Assembly: GCF_017742215.1 (NCBI RefSeq)
Contig: NZ_JAGHKP010000004.1
Location: forward strand, 372,001 to 436,000
Origin: Chitinophaga chungangae
GTDB taxonomy: Bacteria > Bacteroidota > Bacteroidia > Chitinophagales > Chitinophagaceae
DNA: 64,000 nt
Direction of reading: 5' to 3'
How positions within the stretch are numbered: position 1 is the stretch's first letter; every line of letters starts with the position of its first letter. The position numbers were made by a program, and so were the translations under genes. The notes under the pieces were generated by a model. The model worked only from the letters and a program-made list of their open reading frames with translations. It ran no database searches and was not told the DNA's origin. This document shows, piece by piece, positions 15,636-33,140 of this stretch.

Positions 15636-16976
15636 TTATGAAACGGGGATGGCGCCGGCAAATTTCGTTAAGGTAACGAGGTTTTCCGGCGCATTTTTTT
15701 TGTTCCATGTAGAATGGATGGCCATTGCCGCGCCGATAGCGGAAGCCTGTGCAACGTCTGCCCCATACACTTTTTTATCCGGGAATGCGGCGGCGAGCAG
15801 GTGCATGTAAAGCTCGTTTTTGCTGAAACCGCCATCTACAAATATATTTTCCACTTCTCCGCCCTGCAATACCAACTCCGCCGAATGACGCTGCTGCGCC
15901 ATAATGTCGATCATCAGCTGGTGATAAGCTTCTTCCGCGCTGGCGAATGCAGACAATTCACGTTTTGCAAAAACACCGGCATCGGGGTATTTCAAATGCA
16001 GCTGCCTGACGAGCGCGGCGTCGAAACGCATATGATGGAAATCGTTTTCGTTCTTTGAAAAATGCGCGGCAATACGCGTTACCTGCAATTCATGCTCACG
16101 GCCGGCAAACAGCCGCGAAGCTTTTACAGGTTTGCCGTGAAAAGAAAGATAACAAAGACAGTCCTGCTGCAGCTCATCGTCTGTAAGCGGCGAATGATTG
16201 AACGGGTTGAGGCTGATGCACCAGGTGCCGGTGGAGATCAGCAGGAATGGCTCTTTGAATTGAACGAGATAGGGGATGAGGGCGGCCGAGCTGTCGTGCA
16301 GGCCCGTGCCGGTTGGATAGTTCCCCCCGAACACTTTATCAGACGGCTGCAACGGCGCCAGTTTGCCGCGTACGCCTTCTTTTTCCGTCCATTCGTGGTA
16401 TTGCTGCCGCCTGAAATCCCAGAGGTTCGTGTGGCAGCCGATACTGGTGAGCTCCGAGCAGGCGGTGTTGGTAAGCAAAAAGCTCATGTATTGTGGCAGG
16501 TGCAGCGCGTATTGCAGTTTTTTGTACAGCACGGGCTGTTCGTATTTCAGGCGGTACAATTGCATGCCAGAATTGAGACTGCCCAGTATGGGAGAGGCGG
16601 ATACGCGGGGGAACACGGTTTCGCCGCCGTATTGTTCATAAAATTGTTGCCGCAGCGACGGGGGATAAGGTTTCAGGTAATTGTACAACGGCGTGAGCGG
16701 GCGGCCGGTTTCGTCGATAAACACCATGCTGGCGCCATAGGTGGAAAAGTTCACCGCGCGCACGTCGAATTGTTCCCGCCCGGGCAGCGCGGCCACCGCG
16801 TCCAGCACGAAGCGGCGCAGCTGCTGAAGGTCTTCGCAGGCGTCGCCGTCTTCGTCGGTCGTTTCTTCCAGCCGCACGCTCTCTTCGAACACAATACGGT
16901 ATTGTTCGTCGAAAAGGAACAGTTTTTTGTTCGTTTTCCCGATGTCGAAGATGGCTATGACGGGTATTTTTTCCAT
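15636..16976 (-). CDS. rhaB: FGGY-family carbohydrate kinase, probable L-rhamnulokinase
   Basis: Cytoplasmic sugar kinase of 446 aa, probably phosphorylating L-rhamnulose at O1 with ATP. The N-terminal phosphate-binding loop is IFDIGKTNKKLFLFD. A C-terminal segment VDGGFSKNELYMHLLAAAF is the second FGGY nucleotide-binding region, followed by ASAIGAAM. Specificity is inferred from the gene 9 nt upstream, which encodes the fused rhamnulose-phosphate aldolase and lactaldehyde dehydrogenase. L-fuculose or another ketose is the alternative. It is the second gene of a minus-strand operon controlled from the 19.1-19.3 kb region. No rhamnose isomerase is present in the window. Confidence 0.85.
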   Translation of the reverse strand: MEKIPVIAIFDIGKTNKKLFLFDEQYRIVFEESVRLEETTDEDGDACEDLQQLRRFVLDAVAALPGREQFDVRAVNFSTYGASMVFIDETGRPLTPLYNYLKPYPPSLRQQFYEQYGGETVFPRVSASPILGSLNSGMQLYRLKYEQPVLYKKLQYALHLPQYMSFLLTNTACSELTSIGCHTNLWDFRRQQYHEWTEKEGVRGKLAPLQPSDKVFGGNYPTGTGLHDSSAALIPYLVQFKEPFLLISTGTWCISLNPFNHSPLTDDELQQDCLCYLSFHGKPVKASRLFAGREHELQVTRIAAHFSKNENDFHHMRFDAALVRQLHLKYPDAGVFAKRELSAFASAEEAYHQLMIDIMAQQRHSAELVLQGGEVENIFVDGGFSKNELYMHLLAAAFPDKKVYGADVAQASAIGAAMAIHSTWNKKNAPENLVTLTKFAGAIPVS

Positions 16977-16985
16977 TCGGTCGTT

Positions 16986-19109
16986 TTAGCGCACAAAGGC
17001 CATGGCCACGCCGCCGTCTACGTTCAAAACGTTACCCGTGGCCTTGTTGAGCAATCCGCCTACGAATACGAAGCAGGCGTTGGCGATGTCTTCCGGCACA
17101 ATGATCTCATTGAGCAAAGTACGGCTGGCATAATACGCCGGCAATTCCTCCACCTTTACGCCATACGCTTTCGCGCGGCCTTCGGCCCATGCGCCGGCCC
17201 ATATTTTACTGTCGGAGATCACTGCGTCCGGGTTGACGGTATTTACGCGGATATGGTCTTTTCCCAGTTCTGCCGCATTGAGGCGGCTGAGATGCAGCTG
17301 CGCGGCCTTTGCGGAGCCGTAAGCCGCGTTGTTCGGCCCTGAAACAAGGGCGTTTTTGCTGACGATATTCAATACGTCGCCGCCAAAACCCTGTTTGCGC
17401 ATAATGCCCGCGCCTTCGCGGGTAACGAGGAACTGGCCTTTCACCAGCACGTCGTACAACAGGTTCCAGTCGGCTTCGGTATGTTCTTCGAGCGGTTTGG
17501 AGATGGAAAGACCGGCGCAGTTCACCACGATGTCTACCCCGCCAAATTCAAGAATGGCGGCATTAAATACTCTTCTCACGGAACTTTCCGAGGTTACGTC
17601 CAGCACTTTTGCCGCGAACACGTCTTTACCGAAATCTTTTTTGAATGCTTCTTTCGCGGTGGCCAGGCGTTCTTCATCGTTATCGTTGATCACCACTACA
17701 GCGCCTTCCGCGGCGAACTTCATGGCAATGGCTTTCCCGATGCCGCCCGCGCTGCCCGTTACCAGGGCCACGCGGCCGCTGAGGGCTTTGGGTTTTGGCA
17801 TGCGCTGCAATTTCGCTTCTTCCAGCAGCCAGTATTCGATGTTGAACGCTTCCTGCCGCGGCAGCGAGGTGTACGACGACACTGCTTCCGCTCCTTTCAT
17901 CACGTTGATCGCATTGATATAAAATTCGCTCGCCACCCGCGCGGTCTGTTTGTCTTTCGCAAAAGTGAACATCCCGATGCCTGGGTACAGCACCACCACG
18001 GGATTTGCGTCGCGCATGGCCGGGCTGTTCGGGTGACGGCAGCTTTTGTAATATTCCGAATACATTTTCCGGTAATCCTCGAACTGCGGGGCCAACGACG
18101 CTTTTATTTTTGCCGTATCGCTAAGGTCTGCGTCCGGCGCCAGTTCCAGCACCAGCGGGCTTATTTTTGTGCGCAAAAAGTGATCGGGGCAGCTGGTGCC
18201 CATCGGGGCCAGCCGGTCGATATCTTTTGAATTGATGAACTCGAGCACGCGCGGATCGTCTGTGAAATGGCCCACCATACGCACCTGCGAAGAACAATAC
18301 CCGCGCAGCAGTGGCGCCAGCGCAACGGCTTGCTCATGGCGTTTTTCCTGCGGAAGCGATTTTATTTTTTCACCGCCGAACACCGGTCTTTTTTTACCGG
18401 TGTTCTCCGCAAGGTATTGCGCGCAGCGCTCCACCACTTCGAGCGTGTTGATATAACTTTCATATGCGGTATCGCCCCAGGTGAAAAGTCCGTGCGAGCC
18501 GAGCATGATGCCGCGGATGCCCGGGTTTTCGTCGAGGCATTGTCTGAGCTTTAATCCCAGGTCGAAGCCGGGGCGCTGCCAGTCTACCCAGCCGATCGTT
18601 CCTTCGAACAATTCCTGTGTGATCTTTTTCCCGTCTTTCGCCGCCGCAATGGCGATGGCAGCGTCCGGATGCAGGTGATCGATGTGCGCGAAGGGAAGAA
18701 AACCGTGCAGCGGCGTATCGATGCTGGGCGCTTTGGAGCTGAGGTCGAATATGCAATGATTGAACAGTTCTACCATTTCATCTTCATGTTCCACGCCGCG
18801 GTATACTTTCTGAAGACTGCGCAGGCGGTCTACATACAACGCCGCCAGCCCGCTTTTTTTCAGCGTGCCCAGGTCTCCGCCGGAGCCCTTCACCCACATC
18901 ACTTCGGTGGGCTCGCCGGTGAGCGGGTCTTTGGCCTGAACCTTGCAGGAGGTGTTGCCGCCGCCGTAGTTGGTAAGCCGGAGGTCCGCCCCCAGCAAAT
19001 TACTACGGTAAATGAGCAACGCCACTTCGTCGCCGGCCATGGCTGCGGCCTTTTTTTCATCCCATAAGTAACTGACATGCCTGAATTGGATAGTTCTATC
19101 TATAGACAT
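16986..19109 (-). CDS. rhaEW: Bifunctional rhamnulose-1-phosphate aldolase / short-chain alcohol (lactaldehyde) dehydrogenase
   Basis: Fusion enzyme of 707 aa. The N-terminal class II aldolase/adducin-like domain (about 20-400) carries NYGGGNTSCK, GSGGDLGT, FAHIDHLHPDA and LGSHGLFTWGD with the zinc-ligand His residues. It should split rhamnulose-1-phosphate to dihydroxyacetone phosphate and lactaldehyde. The C-terminal SDR domain (about 435-707) carries VTGSAGGIGKAIA for NAD(P) binding, NCAGLS, and the catalytic YGSAK. It should oxidise or reduce the lactaldehyde. The RhaEW fusion is known from rhamnose catabolic loci in several phyla. First gene of the operon; the kinase follows after 9 nt. 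Confidence 0.93.
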   Translation of the reverse strand: MSIDRTIQFRHVSYLWDEKKAAAMAGDEVALLIYRSNLLGADLRLTNYGGGNTSCKVQAKDPLTGEPTEVMWVKGSGGDLGTLKKSGLAALYVDRLRSLQKVYRGVEHEDEMVELFNHCIFDLSSKAPSIDTPLHGFLPFAHIDHLHPDAAIAIAAAKDGKKITQELFEGTIGWVDWQRPGFDLGLKLRQCLDENPGIRGIMLGSHGLFTWGDTAYESYINTLEVVERCAQYLAENTGKKRPVFGGEKIKSLPQEKRHEQAVALAPLLRGYCSSQVRMVGHFTDDPRVLEFINSKDIDRLAPMGTSCPDHFLRTKISPLVLELAPDADLSDTAKIKASLAPQFEDYRKMYSEYYKSCRHPNSPAMRDANPVVVLYPGIGMFTFAKDKQTARVASEFYINAINVMKGAEAVSSYTSLPRQEAFNIEYWLLEEAKLQRMPKPKALSGRVALVTGSAGGIGKAIAMKFAAEGAVVVINDNDEERLATAKEAFKKDFGKDVFAAKVLDVTSESSVRRVFNAAILEFGGVDIVVNCAGLSISKPLEEHTEADWNLLYDVLVKGQFLVTREGAGIMRKQGFGGDVLNIVSKNALVSGPNNAAYGSAKAAQLHLSRLNAAELGKDHIRVNTVNPDAVISDSKIWAGAWAEGRAKAYGVKVEELPAYYASRTLLNEIIVPEDIANACFVFVGGLLNKATGNVLNVDGGVAMAFVR

Positions 19110-19165
19110 AAGATCGCATTTTAGGTTTGTTGTGGCAGATCCGTGGATTGCCGGGGAACATGATT

Positions 19166-19233
19166 CATGACGTGGAATGTCATGTTGCTAAAGTAAAACT
19201 TGTGAATTTTTGAACTGTCATGCACTGTCATGC
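19166..19233. promoter_or_regulatory. Operator cluster between rhaEW and the GntR regulator: repeats of (A)CTGTCATG
   Basis: Four copies of a GTCATG core occur in the divergent intergenic region. Two are exact tandem 10-bp units actgtcatgc (19214-19223 and 19224-19233). One copy aatgtcatg lies at 19176-19184, and one is inverted as catgacgtgg at 19166-19175. A minus-strand -7-like box ctaaagta (TACTTTAG) at 19188-19195 lies between them, and a plus-strand TTACTTTG lies at 19260-19267. The sites thus bracket the rhaEW promoter and sit just upstream of the regulator promoter. The same motif recurs before susC at 20.4 kb. Confidence 0.7.
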
Positions 19234-19289
19234 CCTTCCGCAACTTTACAATTATTTTCTTACTTTGAGGCCGTCGAAAACGCAAGCGT

Positions 19290-20321
19290 ATGAAGCAACA
19301 CCCGGTTTTTAAATATCTTTTCATCGACGATTTTTCCGCCACGCCCAAATATTACCAGCTGGCCAACGCGATCATCCAGACGATCGCAGACGGTAAGCTG
19401 CAGCAGGATGATATTCTCCCTTCCATCAACGAAGTGAGCTATGTTTTCGAGATCTCGAGAGATACGGCGGAGAAAGCCTACAAACATCTCAAAAGCATCG
19501 GCGTGCTCGGCTCCGTGCCCGGTAAAGGGTATTACGTGCAGAACGCTCACCCGCGCCAGCCCTATAAGATACTGCTATTATTTAATAAACTGAGCGAACA
19601 TAAAAAGATCATTTACGATTCTTTTGCGGACAGGCTGGGGGAACATGCCAATATCGACTTCTATATATACAACAGCGATTTCAGCCTGTTCAAAAAACTG
19701 CTTTCCCAGAAAGTGAACGACTACACCCACGTGGTGATCCTCCCGCATTTCCGCGAGCGCTGGGAGCATGTGGACGAGGTGATCAATACCATTCCGAAAG
19801 AGAAGCTCATTTTGCTGGACAAAAAGCTGAAAGGCGTTACCGGCGAATATGGGGCGGTGTACGAGAATTTCCGGGAAGACATTTACGGCGCGCTGGAGCA
19901 GGCGAAAGACCGGCTGCAGCAATACCAGCAGCTGAAACTCATTTATCCTGAAAACACCTATTACCCCGAAGAGATACAGGAAGGTTTCGTGCAATTCTGC
20001 CAGAATTACGCGTTCCCGTTCCACCTGGTGCCCGATATTCTCGACGACGAAATGCAAAAAGGCGACGTATATATCAATATCCGGGAAAACGACCTGGTGA
20101 CGCTGATGGAAAAGATCATGGCCGGCGGATGGCAGGTGGGCAGCGACATTGGCGTGATCTCCTACAACGAAACGCCGCTTAAAAAACTCATACTCAACGG
20201 CATCACCACTATCTCCACCGATTTCAGGGCGATGGGCGAGGTGGCGGCTGAACTGATCCTCGATCATTCGCGCGCGCAGGTGGAAGTGCCGTTTAATATC
20301 AACCTGAGGCCTTCCCTGTAG
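19290..20321 (+). CDS. GntR-type DNA-binding regulator with LacI-like sugar-sensing domain
   Basis: Transcriptional regulator of 343 aa. The N-terminal winged helix-turn-helix of the GntR family spans about 10-78 (NEVSYVFEISRDTAEKAYKHL, then the wing GSVPGKGYYV). The rest (about 85-343) is a periplasmic-binding-protein-like effector domain of the LacI/AraR kind, with FADRLGEH, HVVILPHF, DIGVISYNETPLKK and TTISTDF. It lies between the divergent rhamnose operon and a forward SusC/SusD operon, and the same 10-bp motif occurs in both control regions. A sugar or sugar-phosphate of the rhamnose pathway is the likely effector, and repression of both operons is the simplest model. Confidence 0.92.
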   Translation: MKQHPVFKYLFIDDFSATPKYYQLANAIIQTIADGKLQQDDILPSINEVSYVFEISRDTAEKAYKHLKSIGVLGSVPGKGYYVQNAHPRQPYKILLLFNKLSEHKKIIYDSFADRLGEHANIDFYIYNSDFSLFKKLLSQKVNDYTHVVILPHFRERWEHVDEVINTIPKEKLILLDKKLKGVTGEYGAVYENFREDIYGALEQAKDRLQQYQQLKLIYPENTYYPEEIQEGFVQFCQNYAFPFHLVPDILDDEMQKGDVYINIRENDLVTLMEKIMAGGWQVGSDIGVISYNETPLKKLILNGITTISTDFRAMGEVAAELILDHSRAQVEVPFNINLRPSL

Positions 20322-20378
20322 CGGAAAGCCGCATTATTTACGTATACCCCGTTACGTTAGACAAACACAATGCCCGGG

Positions 20379-20418
20379 CAGGACAGTACAGGACGGTACA
20401 GGACACAACAGGACAGGA
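20379..20418. promoter_or_regulatory. Four tandem 10-bp operator-like repeats upstream of susC
   Basis: Units caggacagta, caggacggta, caggacacaa and caggacagga follow each other without gaps. They share CAGGAC and are phased exactly one helical turn apart. On the minus strand the unit reads TACTGTCCTG, matching the ACTGTCATG units beside rhaEW at 8 of 9 positions. They end about 17 nt before a -7-like box TAAATTGT (20436-20443), so bound protein would cover the -33 region. The susC start codon is at 20490. Confidence 0.72.
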
Positions 20419-20489
20419 ATGTATAACCATTCGTCTAAATTGTGTCTGATACCAGATTTCGCTTTTTGCCACACTAATTCCACATTGTT

Positions 20490-23400
20490 ATGTCTAAATC
20501 CACGATCCGTCACCGGTGTAAAAACCCGCGTTTTGCACTTGCAGGAATTTTCCTGTCAATGCTGCTATGCGCTTCATTTCCCGCCTCTTCTCAAAATAAG
20601 GCCGGCATCAGCGGCCACTTAACAGACGCCGCCACAGGTTCACCATTGCCCAGTGTAACAGTCGGCATCAAAGGGACCAATTCAGGCACTTTTACAGACG
20701 CAAGCGGCAAGTATACCATACAGGCCGCACCCACAGATTCCCTCGTTTTCAGCATGATAGGGTTCGTTTCGCAGACCGTGCTGGTAGGAGACAGAAAAGT
20801 AGTGAACATTCAGCTCGAAAGCAGCAACAAAGTATTGACGCAGGTGGTAGTAGTGGGGTATGGTACCCAGCAGAAAAAAGACGTGACCGGTTCGGTGGGG
20901 ATCGTTTCCATGAAAAATATCAAAGATATGCCGGTAGCCGGTGTAGACCAGGCCCTTGCGGGCCAGGTAGCCGGTATACAGGTGAATACGTCTAACGGCA
21001 TACCGGGCGGCGGCCCGCAGGTGCAGGTAAGAGGCATCGGCGCGGTGGGCGCCGGCAGCCAGCCGCTGTATGTGGTAGACGGATTTCCGCTGGCCTCTTC
21101 ATCCAGTGAAGTAACTAACCCAATGAACGCCATCAACCCCGCCGACATCGAATCGATGGCCATTCTCAAAGACGCCTCCGCCACCGCCATTTACGGCTCC
21201 CGCGGCGCGAACGGCGTTGTGCTCATCACCACCAAACGGGGCGCCAGTGGCGCACCCGTCGTATCTGTTTCCGCCAACACCGGCTGGCAAAAGATACCGC
21301 AAAAAGGCCGCCCGGACCTGATGAACGGGCAGGAATTCGCACAGTTCTGGAAAGAGCTTACCGAAGACAAGATCCGTTTTGAACAGGGCCGTGAGCCCGT
21401 GGAATCAGACATCCCGGAGAAATACCGCAATCCTTCGCTGATCGGCGAAGGCACCAACTGGTTCGACGAAGTGACCCGCACCGCGCCCATGACGGAGATC
21501 AACGCCAGCGTAAGCGGCGGCAGCGAAAAAACGCGGGCCTACGCGTCCGTTGGGTATTTCAACCAGGACGGCGTTATGATCAACACCGGTTACCGCCGTT
21601 ATTCCGTGCGCGCCAACGTGGAAACGAACATCAGCAAAAAATTCAAGATCGGGGTGAACGTAGCGCCCACCTTCTCGCAGAAAAAAGGCTCCATCCGCGG
21701 TGAAGGCCGCGACGAAGTGTTCGGCATCGCCAGCCCGATAGAGCCGGTGTACAACGCAGACGGTTCTTACAACGCCTTTATTCAAAGCCCCGGCACTTTC
21801 GGTCTGCCCAACCCGGTGATGCTGATGAACGAAACGGTGAACAATTTGCGTGAAATGCGGCTGCTGATGAACGGTTACGCGGAATACGAGATCATTCCCA
21901 ACCTGAAATTCAAAAGCACGATCAACATCGATTACCAAAACCTCGCGGCGGAATATTTCCGCCCGTCTACCCTCGGCGGCGTGAACACCGCACCGCCCAG
22001 CATTCCCAGCGCCAACTCGGTGAAAGCGGACAATCTCAACTGGCTGAACGAAAACACGCTCACTTACACGCTGAACCGCAACAATCACAGTTTCACCGGC
22101 CTGCTCGGTTACACCGTACAGCAGCAGAAAGAAAATTTTTCATTGTTCAACGGCACCAATTTCCCGGACGACGACATCAAAACCCTCAACGCCGCCGCCA
22201 CCCTTACCGGCGGAACGGATAAAACGGAATGGGTGCTGCTGTCCTACCTCGCGCGCGTGAACTACGCATACAAAGACAAATACCTCCTTACCGCCACGAT
22301 CCGTACAGACGGTTCTTCCCGCTTCGGCGCGAACAACCGCTGGGGCACCTTTCCCTCACTGGCTTTGGGCTGGAGGATTTCGCAGGAAAACTTCATGCAG
22401 GCCGTTCCCGCCATCAGCGACCTGAAGATCAGGGCTTCGTACGGCTTCACCGGCAACTTCAACATCGGGAACTATTCTTACATGAGCAATATTGGCACGG
22501 CAGACTACGTGCTGGGCGGCGCTCTTGCAGGCGGCCGCGTGATGAACTCCTTCGGCAACCCCAACCTCGGCTGGGAAAAAATGAGGGAGCTTAATATCGG
22601 TATCGATTTCGGTTTGTGGAAAGACAGGCTGTACGTTACCGCAGACTTTTATAAACGCAATACGGAAGACCTGTTGCTGCAGGTGGAAATACCGCAGTCT
22701 TCCGGCTTCGGCACCGTTACCGAAAACAGCGGCGACCTGGAGAACAGGGGGCTTGAGCTCGGCATCAACTCGCTCAACATCAAAACCCAGCGTTTCGCCT
22801 GGAGCACCAATTTCAACATCGCCTTCAACCGCAACAAGGTGCTGAAGCTTGGCCGCAACAACGACCCGATCTATTCCGGCAACAGCAGCGAGGGCAATCC
22901 CACCAACTTCACGATGGTAGGCAAACCGCTGGCGATGCTGTTCGGGTATGTGTTCGACGGCATTTACCAGAACCAGGGCGAAGTAGACAAAGGCCCTGCG
23001 TTTCCCGGCGCGATACCCGGCAATATCCGTTTCAAGGACATTAATGGCGACGGGCAGATCACGCCGCGGCAGGATTTCGACATCATCGGCAATCCGTATC
23101 CCGATTTCACCTGGGGCCTCACCAATATGTTCACCTACGGCAAGTTCGACCTGCGGGTGCTGGTGGTGGGGTCTATGGGGGCAGACAGGCTGCATGCCAC
23201 CAACGACTACAACGGCAACATCGACGGGGTGTTTAACGTGAGAAGGGAAGTAAAAGACCGCTGGCGCTCCGAATCGCAGCCCGGCAACGGGCGCATCCCC
23301 ACCACCAACGGTTCCGGCCGCGGCAGGGTGATGTTCCGCGACGTAAGCTCGCTGACGGTGGAAAAAAATGATTACGCGTGGGTGAAAAACATCACGCTGG

Positions 23401-23609
23401 GTTATTCCATCCCGAAAAAAGGGTTCATTTCCAGCGCGCGCATTTACGCGAGCGTGCAGAACGCCATTTTGTTCACCAAATACAGCGGCAACCCGGAAGT
23501 AAGCAATTATATCGGTAAAGGCGGCAGCGGCGCGCTGGTGCCCGGCATCGATTATTCCAACTACCCGGTGCCGAGGGTATTTATCATCGGAACGAATTTG
23601 TCATTTTAA
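20490..23609 (+). CDS. SusC/RagA family TonB-linked outer-membrane transporter
   Basis: TonB-dependent oligosaccharide importer of 1039 aa. A longer n-region precedes the hydrophobic core IFLSMLLCASFPASS, and cleavage is near SSQNKAG. The carboxypeptidase-like domain (about 37-112) is followed by the motif VVVVGYGTQQKKDVTGSV, the TonB box and plug region. The plug has SMAILKDASATAIYGSRGANGVVLITTK, and the barrel ends RVFIIGTNLSF. No STN domain. It starts a long forward operon with its SusD two nt downstream, behind four operator-like repeats. Co-regulation with rhamnose genes suggests a rhamnose-containing or related glycoside as substrate; that is inference. Confidence 0.95.
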   Translation: MSKSTIRHRCKNPRFALAGIFLSMLLCASFPASSQNKAGISGHLTDAATGSPLPSVTVGIKGTNSGTFTDASGKYTIQAAPTDSLVFSMIGFVSQTVLVGDRKVVNIQLESSNKVLTQVVVVGYGTQQKKDVTGSVGIVSMKNIKDMPVAGVDQALAGQVAGIQVNTSNGIPGGGPQVQVRGIGAVGAGSQPLYVVDGFPLASSSSEVTNPMNAINPADIESMAILKDASATAIYGSRGANGVVLITTKRGASGAPVVSVSANTGWQKIPQKGRPDLMNGQEFAQFWKELTEDKIRFEQGREPVESDIPEKYRNPSLIGEGTNWFDEVTRTAPMTEINASVSGGSEKTRAYASVGYFNQDGVMINTGYRRYSVRANVETNISKKFKIGVNVAPTFSQKKGSIRGEGRDEVFGIASPIEPVYNADGSYNAFIQSPGTFGLPNPVMLMNETVNNLREMRLLMNGYAEYEIIPNLKFKSTINIDYQNLAAEYFRPSTLGGVNTAPPSIPSANSVKADNLNWLNENTLTYTLNRNNHSFTGLLGYTVQQQKENFSLFNGTNFPDDDIKTLNAAATLTGGTDKTEWVLLSYLARVNYAYKDKYLLTATIRTDGSSRFGANNRWGTFPSLALGWRISQENFMQAVPAISDLKIRASYGFTGNFNIGNYSYMSNIGTADYVLGGALAGGRVMNSFGNPNLGWEKMRELNIGIDFGLWKDRLYVTADFYKRNTEDLLLQVEIPQSSGFGTVTENSGDLENRGLELGINSLNIKTQRFAWSTNFNIAFNRNKVLKLGRNNDPIYSGNSSEGNPTNFTMVGKPLAMLFGYVFDGIYQNQGEVDKGPAFPGAIPGNIRFKDINGDGQITPRQDFDIIGNPYPDFTWGLTNMFTYGKFDLRVLVVGSMGADRLHATNDYNGNIDGVFNVRREVKDRWRSESQPGNGRIPTTNGSGRGRVMFRDVSSLTVEKNDYAWVKNITLGYSIPKKGFISSARIYASVQNAILFTKYSGNPEVSNYIGKGGSGALVPGIDYSNYPVPRVFIIGTNLSF

Positions 23610-23611
23610 CC

Positions 23612-25117
23612 ATGTTTAAAATCCTGCACAAAATGAAAACTAAGCTATATCTTATATGCCTGATGGCCTTGTCTGCCAATGGCTGCAATTACATGCTGGA
23701 CGTAAAGCCCAATTCTTTCTCCAGCGGCGAAAATTATTACCAGACGGAGCAACAGGTGCTGCGGGCGGTGAACGGGGCGTATGGGGTGCTGCAAAACCTT
23801 TATACGAGCGACTTCTGGGCGATGACGGAAATGGTGGCGGACAATACCAATTACCAGTACGACGCCAGCGACCGCGGTGCGCAGCAGCGGGAAGAGATCG
23901 ACGAGTTCCTGATCACTTCCAGCAATAACTATGTAAACACGATCTGGGCGCAGATCTACCGGAATATTCACCAGTGCAACGTGATCACTTCCCGGATAGA
24001 CGGCGTCCAGTTCTCCAGTGAAGAAACTAAAAAACGTTATGCGGGAGAAGCTAAATTCCTGCGCGCTTTGTATTATTTTCACCTTGTGCGCCTTTTCGGG
24101 CCGGTGCCGCTGATCGTGAAAGAGCCAGACAGCCCGGAGAACGCGTTCGCCCGCAAAAGGGCCTCAGTGGACGAGGTGTACGCCCAGATCATCGCCGATG
24201 CGAAAGACGCGGCGGAAAGCCTGCCTCCCTCGTACACCGGGGCAGACGTTGGCCGGGCCACCAAAGGCGCCGCGCTCACGCTGCTGGGCGAAGTGTACCT
24301 TACGCGGAAAGATTATACCGCGGCTGCTGGTGCGCTGGAACAGGTGACCAAACTGGGTTACGGGCTGCTGGACAATTACGGGGACAATTTTAACCCCGCC
24401 CGGAAAAACAATGAAGAATCGGTTTTTTCCGTTCAGTACAATTCAGGGCTTGAAACTGAGAGCAGTAATTATATTTTTGTATTCGGGCCACGTAATGGAA
24501 AAAAGGACCTCACAGGGTTCAACGGGTTGCTTGGAGGGAACAATATCCCGACGCCCGGAATTTACAACGCTTACGAAACGGGCGACAAGCGGAGGGATGA
24601 ATCTGTGTATCTGTATGATAGTCCGACCAATGCGCCTTTTGAGGAAGCCGGGGCGTTTGGCGGGAAACTTCCGTTGATCAAAAAATTCTATCATCCACCA
24701 TATGCGCTGGACGGGCGCGCGAACGAAAACTGGCCGGTATACCGCTATTCGCATGTATTGCTCATGCTGGCCGAAGCATTGAACGAAGCCGGCGGCGGTG
24801 ATCCGTACCAATATATCAACCCGGTACGCGAACGCGCAGGGCTCGACCCGCTCGGCGGGCTTGGACAAGCCGCCCTCAGAGACGCCATTCAGCACGAACA
24901 GCGGGTGGAACTGGCCTTCGAGGACCATCGCTGGTACCAGCTGCTGCGCACCGGGAAAGCAGTGGAAGTGATGACGCAGCACGGAAAGGAAGAAAAACAA
25001 CGGTTGACGCGACTGAGCGCCGCATCGTACAACATAGCCGCTTATAAATTGCTCTTTCCCATTCCCGACAGGGAGAAACGCCTGAACGGGCTGGAGCAGA
25101 ACCAGGGATGGGACTGA
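23612..25117 (+). CDS. SusD/RagB family glycan-binding lipoprotein
   Basis: Surface lipoprotein of 501 aa that pairs with the SusC ending 2 nt before it. The lipobox is SANGC. ATG 23633, giving MKTKLYLICLMALSANGC, is an equally good start and would leave a 23-nt spacer. The SusD motifs are LRALYYFHLVRLFGPVPLI, the TPR segment KGAALTLLGEVYLT, RYSHVLLMLAEALNE and HEQRVELAFEDHRWYQLLRTGK, ending LEQNQGWD. It captures the glycan for import. Length and motif order are typical. Confidence 0.95.
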   Translation: MFKILHKMKTKLYLICLMALSANGCNYMLDVKPNSFSSGENYYQTEQQVLRAVNGAYGVLQNLYTSDFWAMTEMVADNTNYQYDASDRGAQQREEIDEFLITSSNNYVNTIWAQIYRNIHQCNVITSRIDGVQFSSEETKKRYAGEAKFLRALYYFHLVRLFGPVPLIVKEPDSPENAFARKRASVDEVYAQIIADAKDAAESLPPSYTGADVGRATKGAALTLLGEVYLTRKDYTAAAGALEQVTKLGYGLLDNYGDNFNPARKNNEESVFSVQYNSGLETESSNYIFVFGPRNGKKDLTGFNGLLGGNNIPTPGIYNAYETGDKRRDESVYLYDSPTNAPFEEAGAFGGKLPLIKKFYHPPYALDGRANENWPVYRYSHVLLMLAEALNEAGGGDPYQYINPVRERAGLDPLGGLGQAALRDAIQHEQRVELAFEDHRWYQLLRTGKAVEVMTQHGKEEKQRLTRLSAASYNIAAYKLLFPIPDREKRLNGLEQNQGWD

Positions 25118-25148: not shown

Positions 25149-27815
25149 ATGCATGTAAAGACCAAACTCTTTATTCTTTTCGCAGCCGTGATGTCGGCCG
25201 CCGCCTGTAACAACAACCAGACGGCCGAAAGGAAACTGACGGGCAACCCGAAGATCGACAAGCTGAAGCTGCCCGACAATTTCAACGTAGATCATCTCTA
25301 CAGTCCCGGCGACAACAAAGAAGGCTCCTGGGTGGCCATGACCTTCGATCCTAAAGGCCGCATGATCGTGTCTGACCAGTTCGGTTTTCTCTACCGGCTG
25401 CAATTGCCCGCGATCGGAGACACCACCACGAAGATCCAGATCGAAAAACTGAAGATCGGCGCGGACACTTCATCGAAAGTAACGATGGGTTACGCACAGG
25501 GCCTGCTCTATGCGTTTAACAGTCTTTACGTGATGGTAAACCACAACAAAGACGACAAATTCGATAAAGGCAGCGGGCTTTACCGCCTGCAGGACAAAGA
25601 CGGCGACGACAATTTCGAGACCATCACCCTGCTGCGCGAACTGGAAGGCGAAGGCGAGCACGGGCCGCACAGCATCGTGTTTGCGCCGGACAAGCAATCG
25701 TTGTACGTGATCGCGGGCAACTTCACCCGCCAGCCCGAAACGAGCACCTTCCGCATCCGCACGATGGACAGCACAGACAACCTGCTGCCCATGATCAAAG
25801 ACCCGAACGGTCACGACCAGATTTCGCATGCGCGCGGCGGATGGATCGCGCACATCGATTCCACCGGCAGCAGCTGGGACATTGTGGCTTCCGGTTTCCG
25901 CAATCCTTTCGACATGGCGTTCAACGACGCCGGCGAGCTGTTCACCTACGATTCCGATATGGAGTGGGACTTCGGCATGCCCTGGTACCGCCCCACGCGT
26001 ATCTGTCATGTTACGAGCGGCGCGGAATTCGGCTGGAGGCACGGTACGGGAAAATGGAACCCGTCTTTCCCCGACAACCTGCCCGCGATCCTCAACATCG
26101 GCCAGGGATCGCCTACCAACGTGGTATACGGCGGCACTGCGCACTTCCCCGACAAATACAAAAAAGCGGTGTTTGCGTTCGACTGGAGCTTCGGCATCAT
26201 TTACGCCGTGCACCTCGAGCCTAAAGGCGCTTCGTATTCCGCCAAAGCGGAAGAATTCCTTTCCGGCGCGCCGCTTCCGCTTACAGACGGCGTGATCGGT
26301 CCCGATGGCGCGATGTACTTCCTCACCGGCGGCCGCAGGCTTGAATCGGACCTTTACAGGATCTATTACAAAGACAATACGGAAAATGCCGCTCCGCTCG
26401 CGGCCGTTGAGCCTACCGAGCTGCAGCAGCAGCGCCGCAAGCTGGAAGCGTTTCACGGCGGCCCGAAAGCCGGCGCTGTGGAAGCCGCATGGCCTTTCCT
26501 GAAACATGAAGACCGGTTTCTCCGTTTCGCGGCGCGCATCGCCATCGAAAATCAACCGGTAGCGGAATGGCAGGCAAAAGCGTTGCAGGAAAAAGATCCT
26601 GAAACCGCTATCCTGCTGGGCGTTGCGCTCGCGCGGCAGGGAAAAGCGGACGTGAAGAACGCGCTCATCACCCACCTCACCAGCCTCAATTACGATAAGC
26701 TCAGCGAAAGCCAGCAATCAGACCTGCTGCGCGCCATCGAGCTTACCATCACCCGCCTCGGCGAGCCGGATGCGGCGCAGAGGACCGCGCTGATCGCTTA
26801 TCTCGATCCGCATTATCCCGCTAAAACCAATAACCTCAACCGCGGCCTGAGCAAACTGCTCGTACACCTCGACGCGCCGAAAAGCGTTGAAAAAACAATG
26901 GCCCTGCTGGAAAGCGCAAAAGACGATCCGGAAGAACAAAAAACCGCTACCGCTTCGCAAGACCTCATCATGCGCAACCCGCAGTACGGCATGGACATTG
27001 CGAACATGCTCGCAAAAATGCCGCCCATCCAGCAAACCTATTACGCCACCGTGCTGAGCCAGGCCAAAGACGGCTGGACGCCCGCGCTGCAGGAACAATA
27101 TTTTAAGTGGTATTACACCGCGTTCGGTTTCAAAGGCGGCCACAGCTTCCTCGGTTTCATCGATGCGGCGCGCCGCAATGCGCTGGCGCTGGTGCCCAAA
27201 GACCAGTTTGAAAAATTCAACATCATGTCCGGCGATTCGCTGGCCCGCAGCGGCGGCGCAGACGTGGCGAAAGTGCAGCCCAAAGGCCCCGGCAGAAGAT
27301 GGAAAGTGAATGATGCCACGCTCGTGATAGACAGCGGCCTTCACAACCGCAACTTCGAACAGGGTAAAGCCATGTTTACTGCCACGCTTTGCAGCTCCTG
27401 CCACACCGTGAAAGGAGAAGGCGGCGTTGCCGGGCCGGATCTCACGCAGCTGGGCACGCGTTTCTCCAACAGGGACATTCTCGAAGCCATCATCGAGCCG
27501 AGCAAAACCATCTCCGACCAGTACGCCGCTACCGTGTTTACTTTGAAAGACGGCAGCACGATCACCGGCAGGCTGGTGAACCAGGACGATAACAAATATT
27601 ACGTTTCGCAAAACCCGTTCTCACCGAAAGACCTGAGAGAGGTTGAAAAGAAAAATGTGAGCGCCACGAATAATTCCACTGTGTCCGTAATGCTGCCCGG
27701 CCTCATCAACAGGCTGAGCCCCGAGGAGCTGCGCGACCTGATGGCATATATCAAGTCCGGCGGCAACGAAAAAGATTCGATGTTCGTCAGCGACGGAAAG
27801 CTGGGTAAAAAATAA
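25149..27815 (+). CDS. PVC-type heme-binding oxidoreductase: beta-propeller, HEAT-like region and cytochrome c domain (lipoprotein)
   Basis: Periplasmic lipoprotein of 888 aa with lipobox SAAAC. Residues of about 35-410 form a sorbosone/glucose-dehydrogenase-like propeller (GEGEHGPHSIVFAPD, SGFRNPFDMAFND, TDGVIGPDGAMYFLTGG). A helical repeat region (about 430-650) follows. The C-terminal cytochrome domain has CSSCHTVKGEGG near 748, then GPDLTQLGTRFSNRDILEAIIEPSK, the pattern of the Planctomycete/Verrucomicrobium heme-binding family. It should oxidise a sugar or alcohol and pass electrons to cytochromes. It lies in the susCD operon with sugar redox genes. The actual substrate and cofactor are unknown. 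Confidence 0.85.
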   Translation: MHVKTKLFILFAAVMSAAACNNNQTAERKLTGNPKIDKLKLPDNFNVDHLYSPGDNKEGSWVAMTFDPKGRMIVSDQFGFLYRLQLPAIGDTTTKIQIEKLKIGADTSSKVTMGYAQGLLYAFNSLYVMVNHNKDDKFDKGSGLYRLQDKDGDDNFETITLLRELEGEGEHGPHSIVFAPDKQSLYVIAGNFTRQPETSTFRIRTMDSTDNLLPMIKDPNGHDQISHARGGWIAHIDSTGSSWDIVASGFRNPFDMAFNDAGELFTYDSDMEWDFGMPWYRPTRICHVTSGAEFGWRHGTGKWNPSFPDNLPAILNIGQGSPTNVVYGGTAHFPDKYKKAVFAFDWSFGIIYAVHLEPKGASYSAKAEEFLSGAPLPLTDGVIGPDGAMYFLTGGRRLESDLYRIYYKDNTENAAPLAAVEPTELQQQRRKLEAFHGGPKAGAVEAAWPFLKHEDRFLRFAARIAIENQPVAEWQAKALQEKDPETAILLGVALARQGKADVKNALITHLTSLNYDKLSESQQSDLLRAIELTITRLGEPDAAQRTALIAYLDPHYPAKTNNLNRGLSKLLVHLDAPKSVEKTMALLESAKDDPEEQKTATASQDLIMRNPQYGMDIANMLAKMPPIQQTYYATVLSQAKDGWTPALQEQYFKWYYTAFGFKGGHSFLGFIDAARRNALALVPKDQFEKFNIMSGDSLARSGGADVAKVQPKGPGRRWKVNDATLVIDSGLHNRNFEQGKAMFTATLCSSCHTVKGEGGVAGPDLTQLGTRFSNRDILEAIIEPSKTISDQYAATVFTLKDGSTITGRLVNQDDNKYYVSQNPFSPKDLREVEKKNVSATNNSTVSVMLPGLINRLSPEELRDLMAYIKSGGNEKDSMFVSDGKLGKK

Positions 27816-27817
27816 AC

Positions 27818-28870
27818 ATGCAACACAACTGGCAACATAAAATATCACATCACGCGCAGCTTGGCGGCATCGAAACGGCCGTGCTGGACAATGGCCCCGG
27901 CAGGGGCAGCCGTGTGGCCTGGGTGAACACCGGCGCCGGGCTGCGCTTTAAAGTGCTGATAGATCGCGCCATGGACATTGCAGAGGCATTTCACGACCGG
28001 CACAGCCTGGCCTGGCTAAGCTGTACCGGTCACCCCCTGCCCGCGCCCGCCCCCACCGGCGGGCTTTCGTGGCTTCATACCTTTGGCGGCGGGCTGCTCA
28101 CTACCTGCGGCCTTTCGCACATAGGCGGGCCGGAAACCGACGGGTTCGGCGACAGGGGATTGCACGGCGCGATCAGCAATACGGCCGCCGAACTCGTTTC
28201 AGTGATCCAGCCCGACCTTGCCGCGGGGCGCGCCGATATGCAGCTCACCGGCATCGTGCGGGAAACGCGCGTGCTGGGCGTGCATCTTGAAATGAAAAGA
28301 ACGATCAACGCGCGTATAGGCGTGCCAGTTATAAAAATTTCGGACGAGATCACCAACCGCGGCAACACGCCCGCGCCGCACATGCTGATGTACCACATGA
28401 ATTTCGGCTGGCCGCTGGCCGACGAAGGCTCGCGGCTGCTGTGGGAAGGCGAATGGACGGCGAGAGACGAAGCCAGCAAATCGATCTTCCGGGAGGGCGG
28501 GGATTTTAAGACTTGTCCCGCGCCGATGGCCGAACATGCGGGCGCCGGCGAAGCGGCGGCCGTTATCGACATCAAAGCGGCGGAAGACGGCTGGTGTATC
28601 GCCGGCTTGCACAACCCGCAGCTGGAACTGGCTACGGTGGTGCGTTTCAAAAAATCGCAGCTGCCCTGGTTCACCAACTGGCAGCACTGGGGCCACGGCG
28701 AATATGTGACCGGCCTGGAGCCTTGCACGCATCCGCCCATCGGGCAGGCGGCGGCAAGGGAAAACGGCACGCTGATCTTTTTACAGCCGGGGGAAAGCCG
28801 CCGGTACGACCTGGAAATTGAAGTGCTGGAAGGCCGCGATGAAATCAAAAAAATATTCCACGATGAATAA
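27818..28870 (+). CDS. DUF4432 family protein (aldose-1-epimerase fold)
   Basis: Cytoplasmic protein of 350 aa, starting 2 nt after the preceding stop. The galactose-mutarotase-like fold is recognised from RAMDIAEAFH, GGGLLTTCGLSHIG, the DRGLHGAISN segment and the C-terminal NWQHWGHGEYVTGLEPCTHPP. These features define DUF4432, whose members are sugar-binding and sometimes isomerases or epimerases. The histidine in LHG and the glutamate in GLEP are likely sugar contacts. It probably interconverts anomers or epimers of the imported or oxidised sugar. There is direct operon coupling to neighbours on both sides. Confidence 0.85.
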   Translation: MQHNWQHKISHHAQLGGIETAVLDNGPGRGSRVAWVNTGAGLRFKVLIDRAMDIAEAFHDRHSLAWLSCTGHPLPAPAPTGGLSWLHTFGGGLLTTCGLSHIGGPETDGFGDRGLHGAISNTAAELVSVIQPDLAAGRADMQLTGIVRETRVLGVHLEMKRTINARIGVPVIKISDEITNRGNTPAPHMLMYHMNFGWPLADEGSRLLWEGEWTARDEASKSIFREGGDFKTCPAPMAEHAGAGEAAAVIDIKAAEDGWCIAGLHNPQLELATVVRFKKSQLPWFTNWQHWGHGEYVTGLEPCTHPPIGQAAARENGTLIFLQPGESRRYDLEIEVLEGRDEIKKIFHDE

Positions 28871-30089
28871 ACAAACTAACACGATCGAAATGGCAACAAC
28901 TAGCTTAGCCGCCCGCGCCCTGGAGCAGGGCAAAGGCATCCTGCGCCTCGCGCCCACCTGGGTGCCGCGCTCGTTCTGCGTGCCCGGCCGCAGGATCAAA
29001 CTGCACCCGGACGATTATTACGTGCTCGGCGGGCAGCGCGGCGGTATCGACGAACGCTGGCTGTCTTCCACCACGCCCGCCAAAAACGGCCCGCTCACCG
29101 GCGAACATGAAGGCTTAAGCAAAATCGTTTTTGACGAGGGCGGCAAAGAAGTGCAATTCCTGCTTAAAGACGCGGTGGACGAACTGAAGGGCGAGCTGAT
29201 CGGCAAACGTTTGTGGGACCAGTACGGTTCCTGGCCGATGTATTCCAAGTTCTTCGACAATCTCGGCCCCCTGCCGCACCATATTCATCACAACGACGAA
29301 AAAGCCGCGCTCATCGGGCAGCTGGGCAAACCGGAAGCTTATTATTTCCCGCCGCAGCTTAATAACCACGGCGGCGATTTTCCATACACTTTCATGGGCA
29401 TCGCGCCGGGCACTACCCGCGAGCAGATCGGCGAGTGCCTGCGCAACTTCACCAAAGGCGACAACAAGATCACCGATCTTTCGCAGGCATTCCTGCTGAG
29501 GCCCGGCACCGGTTGGGACGTGCCTCCCGGCCTGCTGCACGCGCCCGGCAGCCTTTGCACCTACGAGCCGCAAAAAGCCTCCGACGTGTTCGCCATGTAC
29601 CAGTCGCTGGTGAATAATGCCGTAATACCGGAAGAGCTCCTCTGGAACGGCACGCCCAAAGAAAACATCGGCGACTACGAAGCGCTGCTCGATGTGATCG
29701 ACTGGGACCTGAACGTAGACCCGAACCTTTATCACAACCGTTTTATGGCGCCCATTCCGGCAGCTAATGGAGACGGTTATACGGAAAACTGGATCTGTTA
29801 CAAATCCGCCGCGTTCAGCGCCAAAGAACTGACCATCGAACCTGGCGCCACCGTGGTGATCAAAGACAGCGCAGCCTACGGCCTGATAATGATGCAGGGG
29901 CACGGAAAAATGGGCGTGTGGGACATCGAAACGCCCGCGCTCATCCGTTACGGGCAGCTTACCCACGACGAATATTTCGTGAGCGAAAAAGCCGCGAAGG
30001 AAGGGGTGACCATCGTGAACCGTTCTTCTACCGATCCCATCGTGATGCTGAAACATTTCGGGCCTGAAAATCCCGATCTGAAGCTGTAA
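28863..30089 (+). CDS. Phosphomannose-isomerase-like cupin protein
   Basis: Cytoplasmic protein of about 408 aa. The frame is open upstream, but ATG 28863 (8-nt overlap with the previous stop) or ATG 28890 (19 nt after it) are the realistic starts. PHHIHHNDEKAALIGQLGKPEAYY matches the metal site of type I mannose-6-phosphate isomerases, with the His ligands and the Glu of GKPE. PPGLLHAPGSLCTYEPQ corresponds to their second ligand region. It lacks recognisable phosphate-binding features that would fix the substrate, so a non-phosphorylated keto or aldose sugar is possible. Its place between two other sugar isomerase-fold genes supports an aldose-ketose isomerisation. Confidence 0.75.
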   Translation: MNKQTNTIEMATTSLAARALEQGKGILRLAPTWVPRSFCVPGRRIKLHPDDYYVLGGQRGGIDERWLSSTTPAKNGPLTGEHEGLSKIVFDEGGKEVQFLLKDAVDELKGELIGKRLWDQYGSWPMYSKFFDNLGPLPHHIHHNDEKAALIGQLGKPEAYYFPPQLNNHGGDFPYTFMGIAPGTTREQIGECLRNFTKGDNKITDLSQAFLLRPGTGWDVPPGLLHAPGSLCTYEPQKASDVFAMYQSLVNNAVIPEELLWNGTPKENIGDYEALLDVIDWDLNVDPNLYHNRFMAPIPAANGDGYTENWICYKSAAFSAKELTIEPGATVVIKDSAAYGLIMMQGHGKMGVWDIETPALIRYGQLTHDEYFVSEKAAKEGVTIVNRSSTDPIVMLKHFGPENPDLKL

Positions 30090-30122
30090 CCGTATCAATC
30101 TCACGTTTTAAACATCATTGTT

Positions 30123-31166
30123 ATGCAACAAAATAATTTTCCGAAACTGCACAATGCCACCTGGCCGGGCATTGTGGGCAAGGGAGAAGGGTCCGAACCA
30201 GTGATTGCTTTTGATGAAATGCTGAAAATGACCGCCGCCGCGGAAGTGGACGGCGTGAAATTCGACGGGGTGGATATTGGCCTGTTCAACCCTCACTTCG
30301 ACGTAAACAGCAACGACGACGGCATCAAAAAACTGGCAGATAAAGTGGCCGCCCACGGTCTTGAAATAGGCAGTCTTGTTGCGCCGATATGGCCGCCGGA
30401 CGGCGGTTCCGCCATGGGCAGCGCAGACGACCGGAAACGTTTCGTGGAGCAGGTGCGCAAGTCGTGCCACATTGCGAAAAAATTGCGTGAGATCGGCGTC
30501 CGCCCGCACGGCGTGGTGCGCATCGATTCCGCCACATCGCCCGAGGAATGGGCGAAAGACCCGGCGGGCAATACGAAGCTCATTGCGCAGACATTCCGCG
30601 AAGCCTGCGACGTAGCGGCCGATTACGGAGAAAAGCTGGCGGCGGAAGGAGAGATCTGCTGGGGCGGCATGCACAGCTGGAAAACTATGATCGACACGCT
30701 GGAAGCGACCGGACGGCCGAACATCGGTTTCCAGGCGGACATGGCGCATACGCTGCTGTACCTGATGGGCTACAACGCGCCCGAGCACCGCATTCTGCCG
30801 GCTGATTTCGATTGGAGCGACCGGGCAGCGCTGCAGGAAGGATTAAAAAAACTCACCGCCGCCCTCCGCCCCTGGACGATCGATTTCCATGTGGCGCAGA
30901 ACGACGGTACGGTGCACGGCACTGGCTCGCACGACAAAACCGGCCGCCACTGTCTTGCCAATGATCCCAACGGCAAACTGGATATCGCGTCCGATGCGGG
31001 TTTCTGGCTGCGCGACGAAAAAGGCGAACTGACCAAAGCGTTCCGGCACATCTGCTGGGATGGCTGCATGTTCCCCAACGAAAAAATGACGCAGCAGGCC
31101 ACCTGGAACAACATCCTGGCCGCGATGATCAAGGTGCGCAACCAGCACGGATGGCACGAAGCATGA
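30123..31166 (+). CDS. Sugar phosphate isomerase/epimerase (TIM barrel, AP-endonuclease-2 fold)
   Basis: Cytoplasmic TIM-barrel enzyme of 347 aa without a signal peptide. The catalytic/metal residues expected for the family are visible: Glu in [10 protein letters not shown], Asp and His in IGFQADMAH, and the DFHVAQNDG segment followed by [11 protein letters not shown]. In Bacteroides loci that process 3-keto-glycosides, a protein of this fold acts as a hydratase of the enone product. The flanking Gfo/Idh/MocA and DUF1080 genes make that role plausible here. An isomerase or epimerase role is the default alternative. Confidence 0.87.
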
Positions 31167-31188
31167 ACATCATAAATCATTACACAAC

Positions 31189-32340
<1,152 letters not shown>

Positions 32341-32359
32341 ACAATTTTAAATTCCGCAT

Positions 32360-33100
32360 ATGCTGAAACAATCAGTGCTCGGCCTTTGTATTGCCTCGGT
32401 GGTTCTGCTGAACGCAGGATGCGCCAACGGTCAGTCAAAAGGCGCCAAAAGTATCTTCGACGGCAAAACCCTCAACGGATGGGAAGGCGATACCAATTAC
32501 TGGCGCGTGGAGAACGGGAATCTTGTGGGCGAGATCACGCCGGATAAAACCTTGAAATCAAACAGCTTCATCGTGTGGCAGGGCGGCCAGCCCGGAGACT
32601 TTGAGCTGACGCTGGAGTTTAAGATCACCAAAAGCGGCAACAGCGGCATCAATTACCGCAGCGCGAAATTCGACGGCGTGCCTAATGCACTTACCGGCTA
32701 CCAGGCAGACATCGACGGCGCCAACCGCTACACCGGCCAGAACTACGAAGAACGCGGCCGCACCACGCTCGCTTACCGCGGGCAGAAAGTGACCATTCCC
32801 GCAACGGACAAAACCCTGCAGGAAGGCGGCAAAGGCAATGCCTGGACGCTGGCCGAAGTAACCGGCTCGCTCGGCAGCAGCGATTCGCTGAAAACGGTGA
32901 TCAAACAGGAAGACTGGAACACCTGCCGCATCGTTGCCAAAGGCAACCGCCTGCAACATTACATCAACGGCGTGCTGATGAGCGACGTGACCGACAACGA
33001 CAAAGTGTACGGCCGCGCGAAAGGCCTGCTGGGCATGCAGGTGCATGTAGGCCCGCCGATGAAGGTGGAATACCGGAAAATAATGATGAGAGAATTGTAG
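32360..33100 (+). CDS. DUF1080 (3-keto-disaccharide hydrolase family) lipoprotein
   Basis: Predicted periplasmic lipoprotein of 246 aa with lipobox LNAGC. The concanavalin-like jelly roll is recognised from SIFDGKTLNGWEG, WRVENGNLVGEIT, DFELTLEFKITKSGNSGINYRS and GLLGMQVHVGPPMKVEYR, all DUF1080 signatures. The family includes enzymes acting on 3-keto-glycosides, cleaving the glycosidic bond after oxidation at C3. Here the export signal places it in the periplasm, near the heme-binding oxidoreductase of the same operon. A cleavage role is inferred from family and context. Confidence 0.9.
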   Translation: MLKQSVLGLCIASVVLLNAGCANGQSKGAKSIFDGKTLNGWEGDTNYWRVENGNLVGEITPDKTLKSNSFIVWQGGQPGDFELTLEFKITKSGNSGINYRSAKFDGVPNALTGYQADIDGANRYTGQNYEERGRTTLAYRGQKVTIPATDKTLQEGGKGNAWTLAEVTGSLGSSDSLKTVIKQEDWNTCRIVAKGNRLQHYINGVLMSDVTDNDKVYGRAKGLLGMQVHVGPPMKVEYRKIMMREL

Positions 33101-33140
33101 CCGCTATCTTTATGTTGTTCCATCTTTTTAATTTCAAAGC

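Follow-up and report, generated by a model that had tools for sequence, protein, structure and literature searches.

A sugar-sensing regulator of soil bacteria appears to read helical-turn repeats at promoters for rhamnose, nutrient import and, probably, lactate use

AraR binds palindromic sites and acts by repression, NanR carries a FadR-type C-terminal domain and binds repeats with a period other than 10 bp, and Escherichia coli XylR binds direct repeats. XylR places a LacI-type sensor on an activator, as we propose for the regulator described here and named RhaR (Table 1), and differs from it in having an AraC-type DNA-binding domain. The AraR subfamily, with Bacillus subtilis AraR, is similar to RhaR in combining a GntR winged helix with a LacI/GalR-type sensor and in serving a sugar pathway (PMC4494728). 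Our locus differs from AraR in its predicted operators, direct repeats of 10 bp whose distance to the -7 element is fixed, and in its predicted targets, which are rha, susC and, probably, lut. E. coli NanR, which binds (GGTATA)3, is likewise a GntR-type protein on tandem direct repeats, with several dimers side by side, but it binds downstream of the polymerase site and represses (PMC8012715). The MocR-type activators TauR, GabR and PdxR share the GntR winged helix and the direct repeats, and several of them activate; the TauR repeats CTGGACYTAA also resemble CAGGACNNNN (PMC5320631, PMC4494728). Unlike RhaR, in which Pfam gives GntR and Peripla_BP_3 domains only, the MocR types have an aminotransferase-like sensor domain at the C terminus.

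According to PMC3870299 and PMC3878776, rhamnose regulators include AraC, LacI and DeoR types, and the main text of PMC3870299 contains no mention of GntR. Bacteroides RhaR (AraC family) and the DeoR-type RhaR also regulate rhamnose genes and belong to different protein families; the sites of the latter are imperfect direct repeats with a period of 10-11 bp (PMC3870299, PMC3878776). The original prediction considered direct-repeat operators of exactly one turn unusual for GntR proteins, a statement to be softened given the precedents of NanR, FarR, NagQ and the MocR types on direct repeats (PMC4494728, PMC8012715, PMC5320631). The arrangement at our locus is an uncommon one for the family. In the open PMC literature, we found no description of this regulator or operator, nor any paper that brings together Chitinophaga, rhamnose and GntR.

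We analyzed a 64-kb stretch of a Chitinophaga genome, referred to as the window, and collected its relevant features in Table 1. RhaR has a GntR winged helix (PF00392, E=1.3e-10) and a C-terminal LacI/GalR-type sugar-binding domain (PF13377, Peripla_BP_3). Its AlphaFold model has a pLDDT of 89.6 and a sensor part matching CcpA, LacI and other LacI-type structures; in sequence search, the alignment to AraR (4EGY) covers the winged helix only. The regulator is AraR-like in its winged helix and its LacI/GalR-type sensor, and not in having a palindromic operator. A shift of 10 gave a direct-repeat profile similarity of 0.82, against 0.08 for shifts of 9 and 11, and the best palindromic readings reached 0.66 and 0.62, their source being the self-complementary CATG that is lost in the CAGG variants. 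The genome holds no second copy or close paralog of the regulator at E<=1e-20. Among 28 genus genomes tested for rhaEW, the gene was present in all 19 with the regulator and in one of the nine without it.

Table 1. Features of the window around the regulator gene, with positions counted from the first base of the window
Feature	Position	Strand	Remarks
FGGY sugar kinase, rhamnulokinase-like	15636..16976	(-)	below NCBIfam cut-off
rhaEW, bifunctional aldolase / short-chain dehydrogenase	16986..19109	(-)	equivalog match NF006191; TIGR02632
-7 element of rhaEW, TACTTTAG	19188..19195	(-)	first base 22 bp from last base of proximal core
Array 1	19214..19233	(-)	two direct 10-bp units; predicted operator of the rhaEW(-kinase) promoter
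Array 1 cores, CATGAC	19227-19232 and 19217-19222	(-)	
Regulator (RhaR), GntR winged helix and LacI-like sugar-binding domain	19290..20321	(+)	winged helix at residues 21-83
Recognition-helix codons (residues 57-69)	19458..19496	(+)	residue 58 at 19461-19463, Asp here
Array 2	20379..20414	(+)	four CAGGAC units, 10-bp spacing; predicted operator of the susC promoter
-7-like element of susC, TAAATTGT	20436..20443	(+)	first base 22 bp from last base of fourth core (20414)
susC/ragA-type TonB-dependent receptor	20490..23609	(+)	TIGR04056
susD-type lipoprotein	23612..25117	(+)	
Rest of susC operon (probable)	25149..34157	(+)	same strand, short gaps, extent inferred from layout only; heme-binding CxxCH protein, DUF4432, unassigned 423-aa ORF, TIM-barrel isomerase-like, GFO/IDH/MocA, 3-keto-disaccharide hydrolase domain (PF06439), Zn-dehydrogenase

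Both arrays are real. Array 1 consists of ACTGTCATGC exactly twice in tandem and is the sole exact 10-bp tandem duplication in the window, for which a Markov simulation gave a mean of 0.085 per 64 kb. For the pattern GTCMTG-N4-GTCMTG, the window has four occurrences where 0.015 are expected; in the whole 6.04-Mb genome, the strict array pattern matched only the two arrays. The window simulation and the genome-wide pattern count together rule out chance tandem repeats; backward-pattern and reversed-sequence controls were invalid because GTCCTG is its own reversal. The original prediction of two exact tandem copies accompanied by two more GTCATG copies was right for the tandem pair and partly so for the rest, one additional copy being exact (19179) and the other reading TTCATG near 19164. 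Both extra copies sit beyond the rhaEW -7 element. We do not count them as operator words, since conservation ends with the closest relative (L001), which has one of them; no equivalent was visible in the remaining aligned upstream sequences. In array 2, the four CAGGAC units at 10-bp steps were confirmed, and the full ACTGTCCTG, which all of them had been said to read on the other strand, is found in one unit only, the rest differing in the first letters. Within the window, the rhaEW and susC promoters have equal +22 spacing and equal orientation of the array relative to transcription. The CATG-containing words of the rhaEW leader at 19164-19184, outside the array, occur in the window, partly in C. 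barathri (L001) and in no other aligned sequence.

To follow array 1 among relatives, we kept 80 orthologous loci of the 574 relatives found. We looked for loss of the repeats from these loci and found instead that 66 of the 80, including L066 and L080 with susC-type and not rha genes as neighbours, have a two-unit array in the 400 bp preceding the regulator. In L067, rhaT comes after the regulator gene in the same direction, and the array is placed upstream of rhaT, where the regulator gene ends. The array was not found in 13 loci (L026, L030, L054, L057-L059, L061, L063, L070, L072, L073, L075 and L078); a related degenerate sequence is visible in L030, and some of the others either have the beginning of the rha operon beyond the stretch or border on a rhamnosidase cluster or on unassigned genes. 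Sixty-five of the 80 loci contain rhaT; as a rule it diverges from the regulator and leads a row of rhaEW, a small rhaM, an isomerase-like gene and a kinase. The regulator is thus linked to rha clusters that have a conserved array at their promoter, a pattern expected of a rhamnose catabolic regulon.

Aligning the loci on the array without gaps (50 non-redundant of 67 rows) revealed CATGA(C/T)RG twice at a 10-bp period and then TAnnTTTnA at +22 to +29, where the proximal core's last base is the reference; the bases between the array and the -7 element are little conserved. Under a stricter redundancy filter, TANNTT stood at +22 in 38 of 44 promoters and at +21 in five, with neither in L080; among all 67 rows, it was at +22 in 61. 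TAnnTTTG is the -7 box of sigma-A in a Flavobacterium (PMC9723704). On the regulator's own side, the box was found in 24 of 44 cases at scattered positions, without any fixed spacing. A -33 TTG was present in 5 of 38 rha promoters, in 2 of 24 control promoters on the regulator side and at 271 of 1760 random places; as the controls and random places look alike, we dropped the missing TTG as proof of activation.

For array 2, we searched 79 genus genomes and found a susC match at E<=1e-290 in 31, with 73-100% identity in 18 and 48-51% in 13. All 18 orthologs have an array with TAnATT at +22, with four units in 17 and two clear units in G073. This count does not come from blind array choice, which for 17 of the 18 settled on an upstream pair among the four units and so placed the -7 element at +42 (22 + 20). 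In three of the 18 genomes, a distance of 0.37-2.2 Mb on one contig separates susC from the regulator (1.89 Mb in G002, 2.19 Mb in G024 and 0.37 Mb in G073). The array follows susC even there, so it belongs to susC and not to the neighbourhood of the regulator; the reading of array 2 as a mere neighbour is ruled out, and the flanking of the regulator gene by the two arrays, which the original prediction had pointed out, is incidental. All 12 examined of the 13 distant susC homologs show an array of two units, partly degenerate, and TANNTT at +22; nine of them have a second TANNTT at +27. The thirteenth, in G009, agrees. On this comparative evidence, both arrays are conserved promoter elements, array 1 of the rhaT/rhaEW promoter and array 2 of the susC promoter. 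In G073 (contig C1, L192), CAGGATTAAG repeats form a second cluster, next to the diverged operator array and about 430 bp ahead of susC.

In a scan requiring TANNTT at +21 to +23 and scoring C and T alike, the rha and susC operators agreed in the first base of their proximal cores in all 31 genomes with both operators read, 24 being C/C and seven T/T. Residue 58 of the regulator is Asp wherever it was read together with a C-type array (66 of 66 loci and nine of nine further genomes with C), and Gly in all seven genomes with a T-type rha operator and the regulator read. Four of these Gly58 genomes belong to the T/T group of seven, whose three other members (G043, G066 and G067) lie outside the residue 58 sample. 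The residue is within the recognition helix (SRDT), aligns to the His of VSRHT in AraR (4EGY) and, in our own reading of the alignment, would correspond to HTH position 39. A covariation study predicted Asp-C contacts for GntR proteins, with Asp and C at HTH position 39, and a His-G contact for AraR at the same position (PMC4494728). Array 1 of four loci (L024, L034, L039 and L042) is a hybrid of one CATGAC and one CAGGAY core.

The covarying first base and the matching residue 58 thus tie one GntR-LacI hybrid regulator to both promoters. The switch from C to T and from Asp to Gly separates clades, as do many other winged-helix columns, and may be a single event. As far as sequence can tell, the original prediction that a GntR/LacI-type regulator controls both the rha genes and the susC operon through 10-bp direct repeats is supported by the conserved arrays and their equal geometry, and further by the operator covariation within genomes and the matching change in the recognition helix. 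Genome comparison establishes the arrays, their spacing, orientation and conservation, the target genes, the operator covariation and the Asp58/Gly58 change, and the predicted operator system is real, conserved and dedicated.

In other Chitinophaga clades, regulators of 51-60% identity are found with rha promoters that mostly read CATAACAGTNCATGACAG, with variants CATGATGGCACAGGATGG in G032 and CAGGATGCGGCAGGATGC in G007, and those of about 42% identity with TAGGNNNGTRTAGGAYAG or near variants; the -7 element is at +22 in both groups. With the array chosen by core score alone, TANNTT was at +22 in 18 of 20 rha promoters of these clades. One miss, in G043, had its rhaT promoter outside the stretch and was later read at +22; in the other, G007, an equal-scoring match lies 72 bp before rhaEW and the site itself is at +22. 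The promoter of G061, outside the 20, also has +22. G036 has rhaEW and a T-type rha array, with the regulator not found at E<=1e-60.

In the wider class, we found rhaT at E<=1e-60 in 19 of 247 genomes and the regulator at E<=1e-30 in 12 of the 19. The array score, defined as the best 17-point score in the 450 bp upstream of rhaT, was at least 12 of 17 in eight of the 12 genomes with the regulator and in none of the seven without it; random stretches of the same loci reached 12 in 5.5% of cases. G143 and G179 have AAGGAYAGTACAGGAYAG at rhaT, with a CAGGA-type core as in array 2. The score of G109 was only 11, no array is visible at rhaT in G192 (regulator of 54% identity), and none was seen at rhaT in G320 and G185 (homologs of 39% and 34%). 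Two loci, L183 of G179 and L184 of G143, contain distant paralogs of the regulator with other 10-bp direct repeats, of the ACAGAACGGA type, nearby, a hint that further members of the GntR-LacI family may rely on direct repeats of one helical turn.

A relaxed array pattern occurs at 17 places in the genome of the window, four in the arrays and 13 elsewhere. Twelve of the 13 lie in or overlap ORFs and one is intergenic, a CAGGACGGTGCAGGAT pair 110 bp upstream of lutB (LUD domain, 4Fe-4S), outside the window (G000:C7:672816-674302, L293). The end product of RhaEW is lactate, which makes a lut target sensible; the enzyme converts rhamnulose phosphate via lactaldehyde (PMC3870299). lutB is present in 79 of 79 genus genomes, and the array score was at least 13 in 11 of the 30 lutB loci examined. 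All 11 have NANNTT at +22, the first base of the -7 element being A, C or T; strict TANNTT at +22 is found in two of them, and offsets of +10 and +11 are frequent as well once the -7 pattern is relaxed in this way. We regard lutB, a gene of L-lactate use, as a possible third target, less certain than rha and susC.

In two relatives, genes of GH106 rhamnosidase clusters (L016, assigned by Pfam, and L018, by clustering) likewise follow a two-unit CAGGAY array that has TAnnTT at +22, and these genes look like further targets. The same layout stands before a fasciclin-domain gene in L014, with homologous genes in L019 and L130, before the susC-type gene of L066, and before unassigned genes in L116 and L123, with +21 in L041. 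Elsewhere in the genus genomes, 20 regions with isolated CAGGAC pairs were chosen from among the matches listed, and TANNTT was at +22 at a CAGGAY array in L114, L127-L129 (susC orthologs), L116, L123 and L130; the remaining CAGGAC arrays of these regions are without TANNTT at +22, several of them in coding sequence. As a separate observation, the 17-bp word CTGACATAAGGCTGTCA, an inverted repeat TGACA-N6-TGTCA, is identical at six examined places of the genome of the window (G000; C1, C7 and others), with at least one more place besides. At the six places, a TAnnTTTG-like box and a possible start codon come a short way after it (L135, L137, L139, L141, L142 and L143) and looks like the operator of another regulon.

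The gene content of the genome bears on the possible inducer. RhaT has no homolog in it at E<=1e-60, and one RhaI type gave no match in a search without positive control; by these queries, the canonical rhamnose route is incomplete, and the inducer may therefore not be rhamnose. With rhaEW and the rhamnulokinase-like gene present, the upper pathway may have been replaced. The genes downstream of susCD, with their GFO/IDH/MocA, TIM-barrel isomerase-like, PF06439 and heme-binding products, look like a 3-keto-glycoside pathway, and the gene set suggests glycoside import and oxidative cleavage rather than simple rhamnose uptake.

The explanation that we find best, and consider probable, is that the arrays are operators of the hybrid regulator encoded between them and that this acts as a sugar-loaded activator. 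One winged helix would bind each 10-bp word CA(T/G)GA(C/T)RGNN, and successive words, two at rhaT/rhaEW and four at susC, lie on one face of the DNA, so that neighbouring winged helices would be arranged head to tail. The proximal word ends 22 bp before the -7 element, where the -33 element normally sits, and the sugar-loaded protein on the array would most likely help RNA polymerase onto the promoter. The 22-bp spacing is held while the intervening sequence drifts, and this exact distance and the same orientation at unrelated operons fit an activator touching RNA polymerase better than a road-block. We infer direct binding, one winged helix per word, activation over repression and a rhamnose-derived inducer. 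The chances are just short of even for the complete model, in which a sugar-dependent GntR-LacI activator would replace the -33 element, binding head to tail on 10-bp repeats 22 bp before the Bacteroidota -7 element, with the repeat number setting promoter strength, Asp58/Gly58 setting the first base of every word, and rha, susC and lut forming the regulon.

A serious rival, if an unlikely one, retains the regulator and the operators and makes the array-bound protein a repressor that blocks polymerase at -33 until released by sugar. Known AraR-type proteins are repressors, as are most GntR and LacI proteins. RhaR has the domain architecture of the AraR subfamily, its array sits where polymerase is expected to bind, and repression from an operator made of repeats is described for NanR, a relative among the GntR regulators (PMC8012715). 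A repressor would have no need for an exact distance to the -7 element, yet the distance is kept across dozens of diverged promoters and several operon types, and we prefer the sugar-loaded activator.

The arrays could also be bound by a different protein, such as a PhoB-like response regulator or a global regulator. Pho boxes, the sites of PhoB, are CTGTCAT direct repeats with an 11-bp period. They are resembled by CTGTCATGCACTGTCATG, and arrays are also found far from the regulator gene and, in G036, in a genome where the regulator was not found. The period here is 10 bp and not 11, however, and the genome has no exact CTGTCAT repeat of 11-bp period, for which reason we rejected the Pho-box reading. 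A different protein is altogether very improbable given that the strict array is confined to rha and susC, that the half-site base covaries with residue 58 of the regulator and that array-like sequence at distant rhaT genes goes with the regulator (8/12 against 0/7). Even less credible is that the two arrays are unrelated, array 1 being the site of the regulator and array 2 that of another factor or neutral repeat DNA. Their cores do differ (CATGAC and CAGGAC), as do their unit numbers (two and four), and susC is remote from the regulator in three genomes; but the cores are mixed in the hybrid sites of L024, L034, L039 and L042, CAGGAY-type proximal cores appear at rhaT in G143 and G179, and the arrays share their orientation, the +22 distance and a first base covarying in all 31 genomes.

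For the use of sugars and glycans in soil Bacteroidota, the locus provides a predicted regulator with its operator code, the exact geometry of the promoters and a residue that may set specificity. If activation is true, a GntR-type winged helix on an AraR-like architecture would activate through one-turn direct repeats, and the arrangement would offer a compact design of inducible promoters for soil Bacteroidota.
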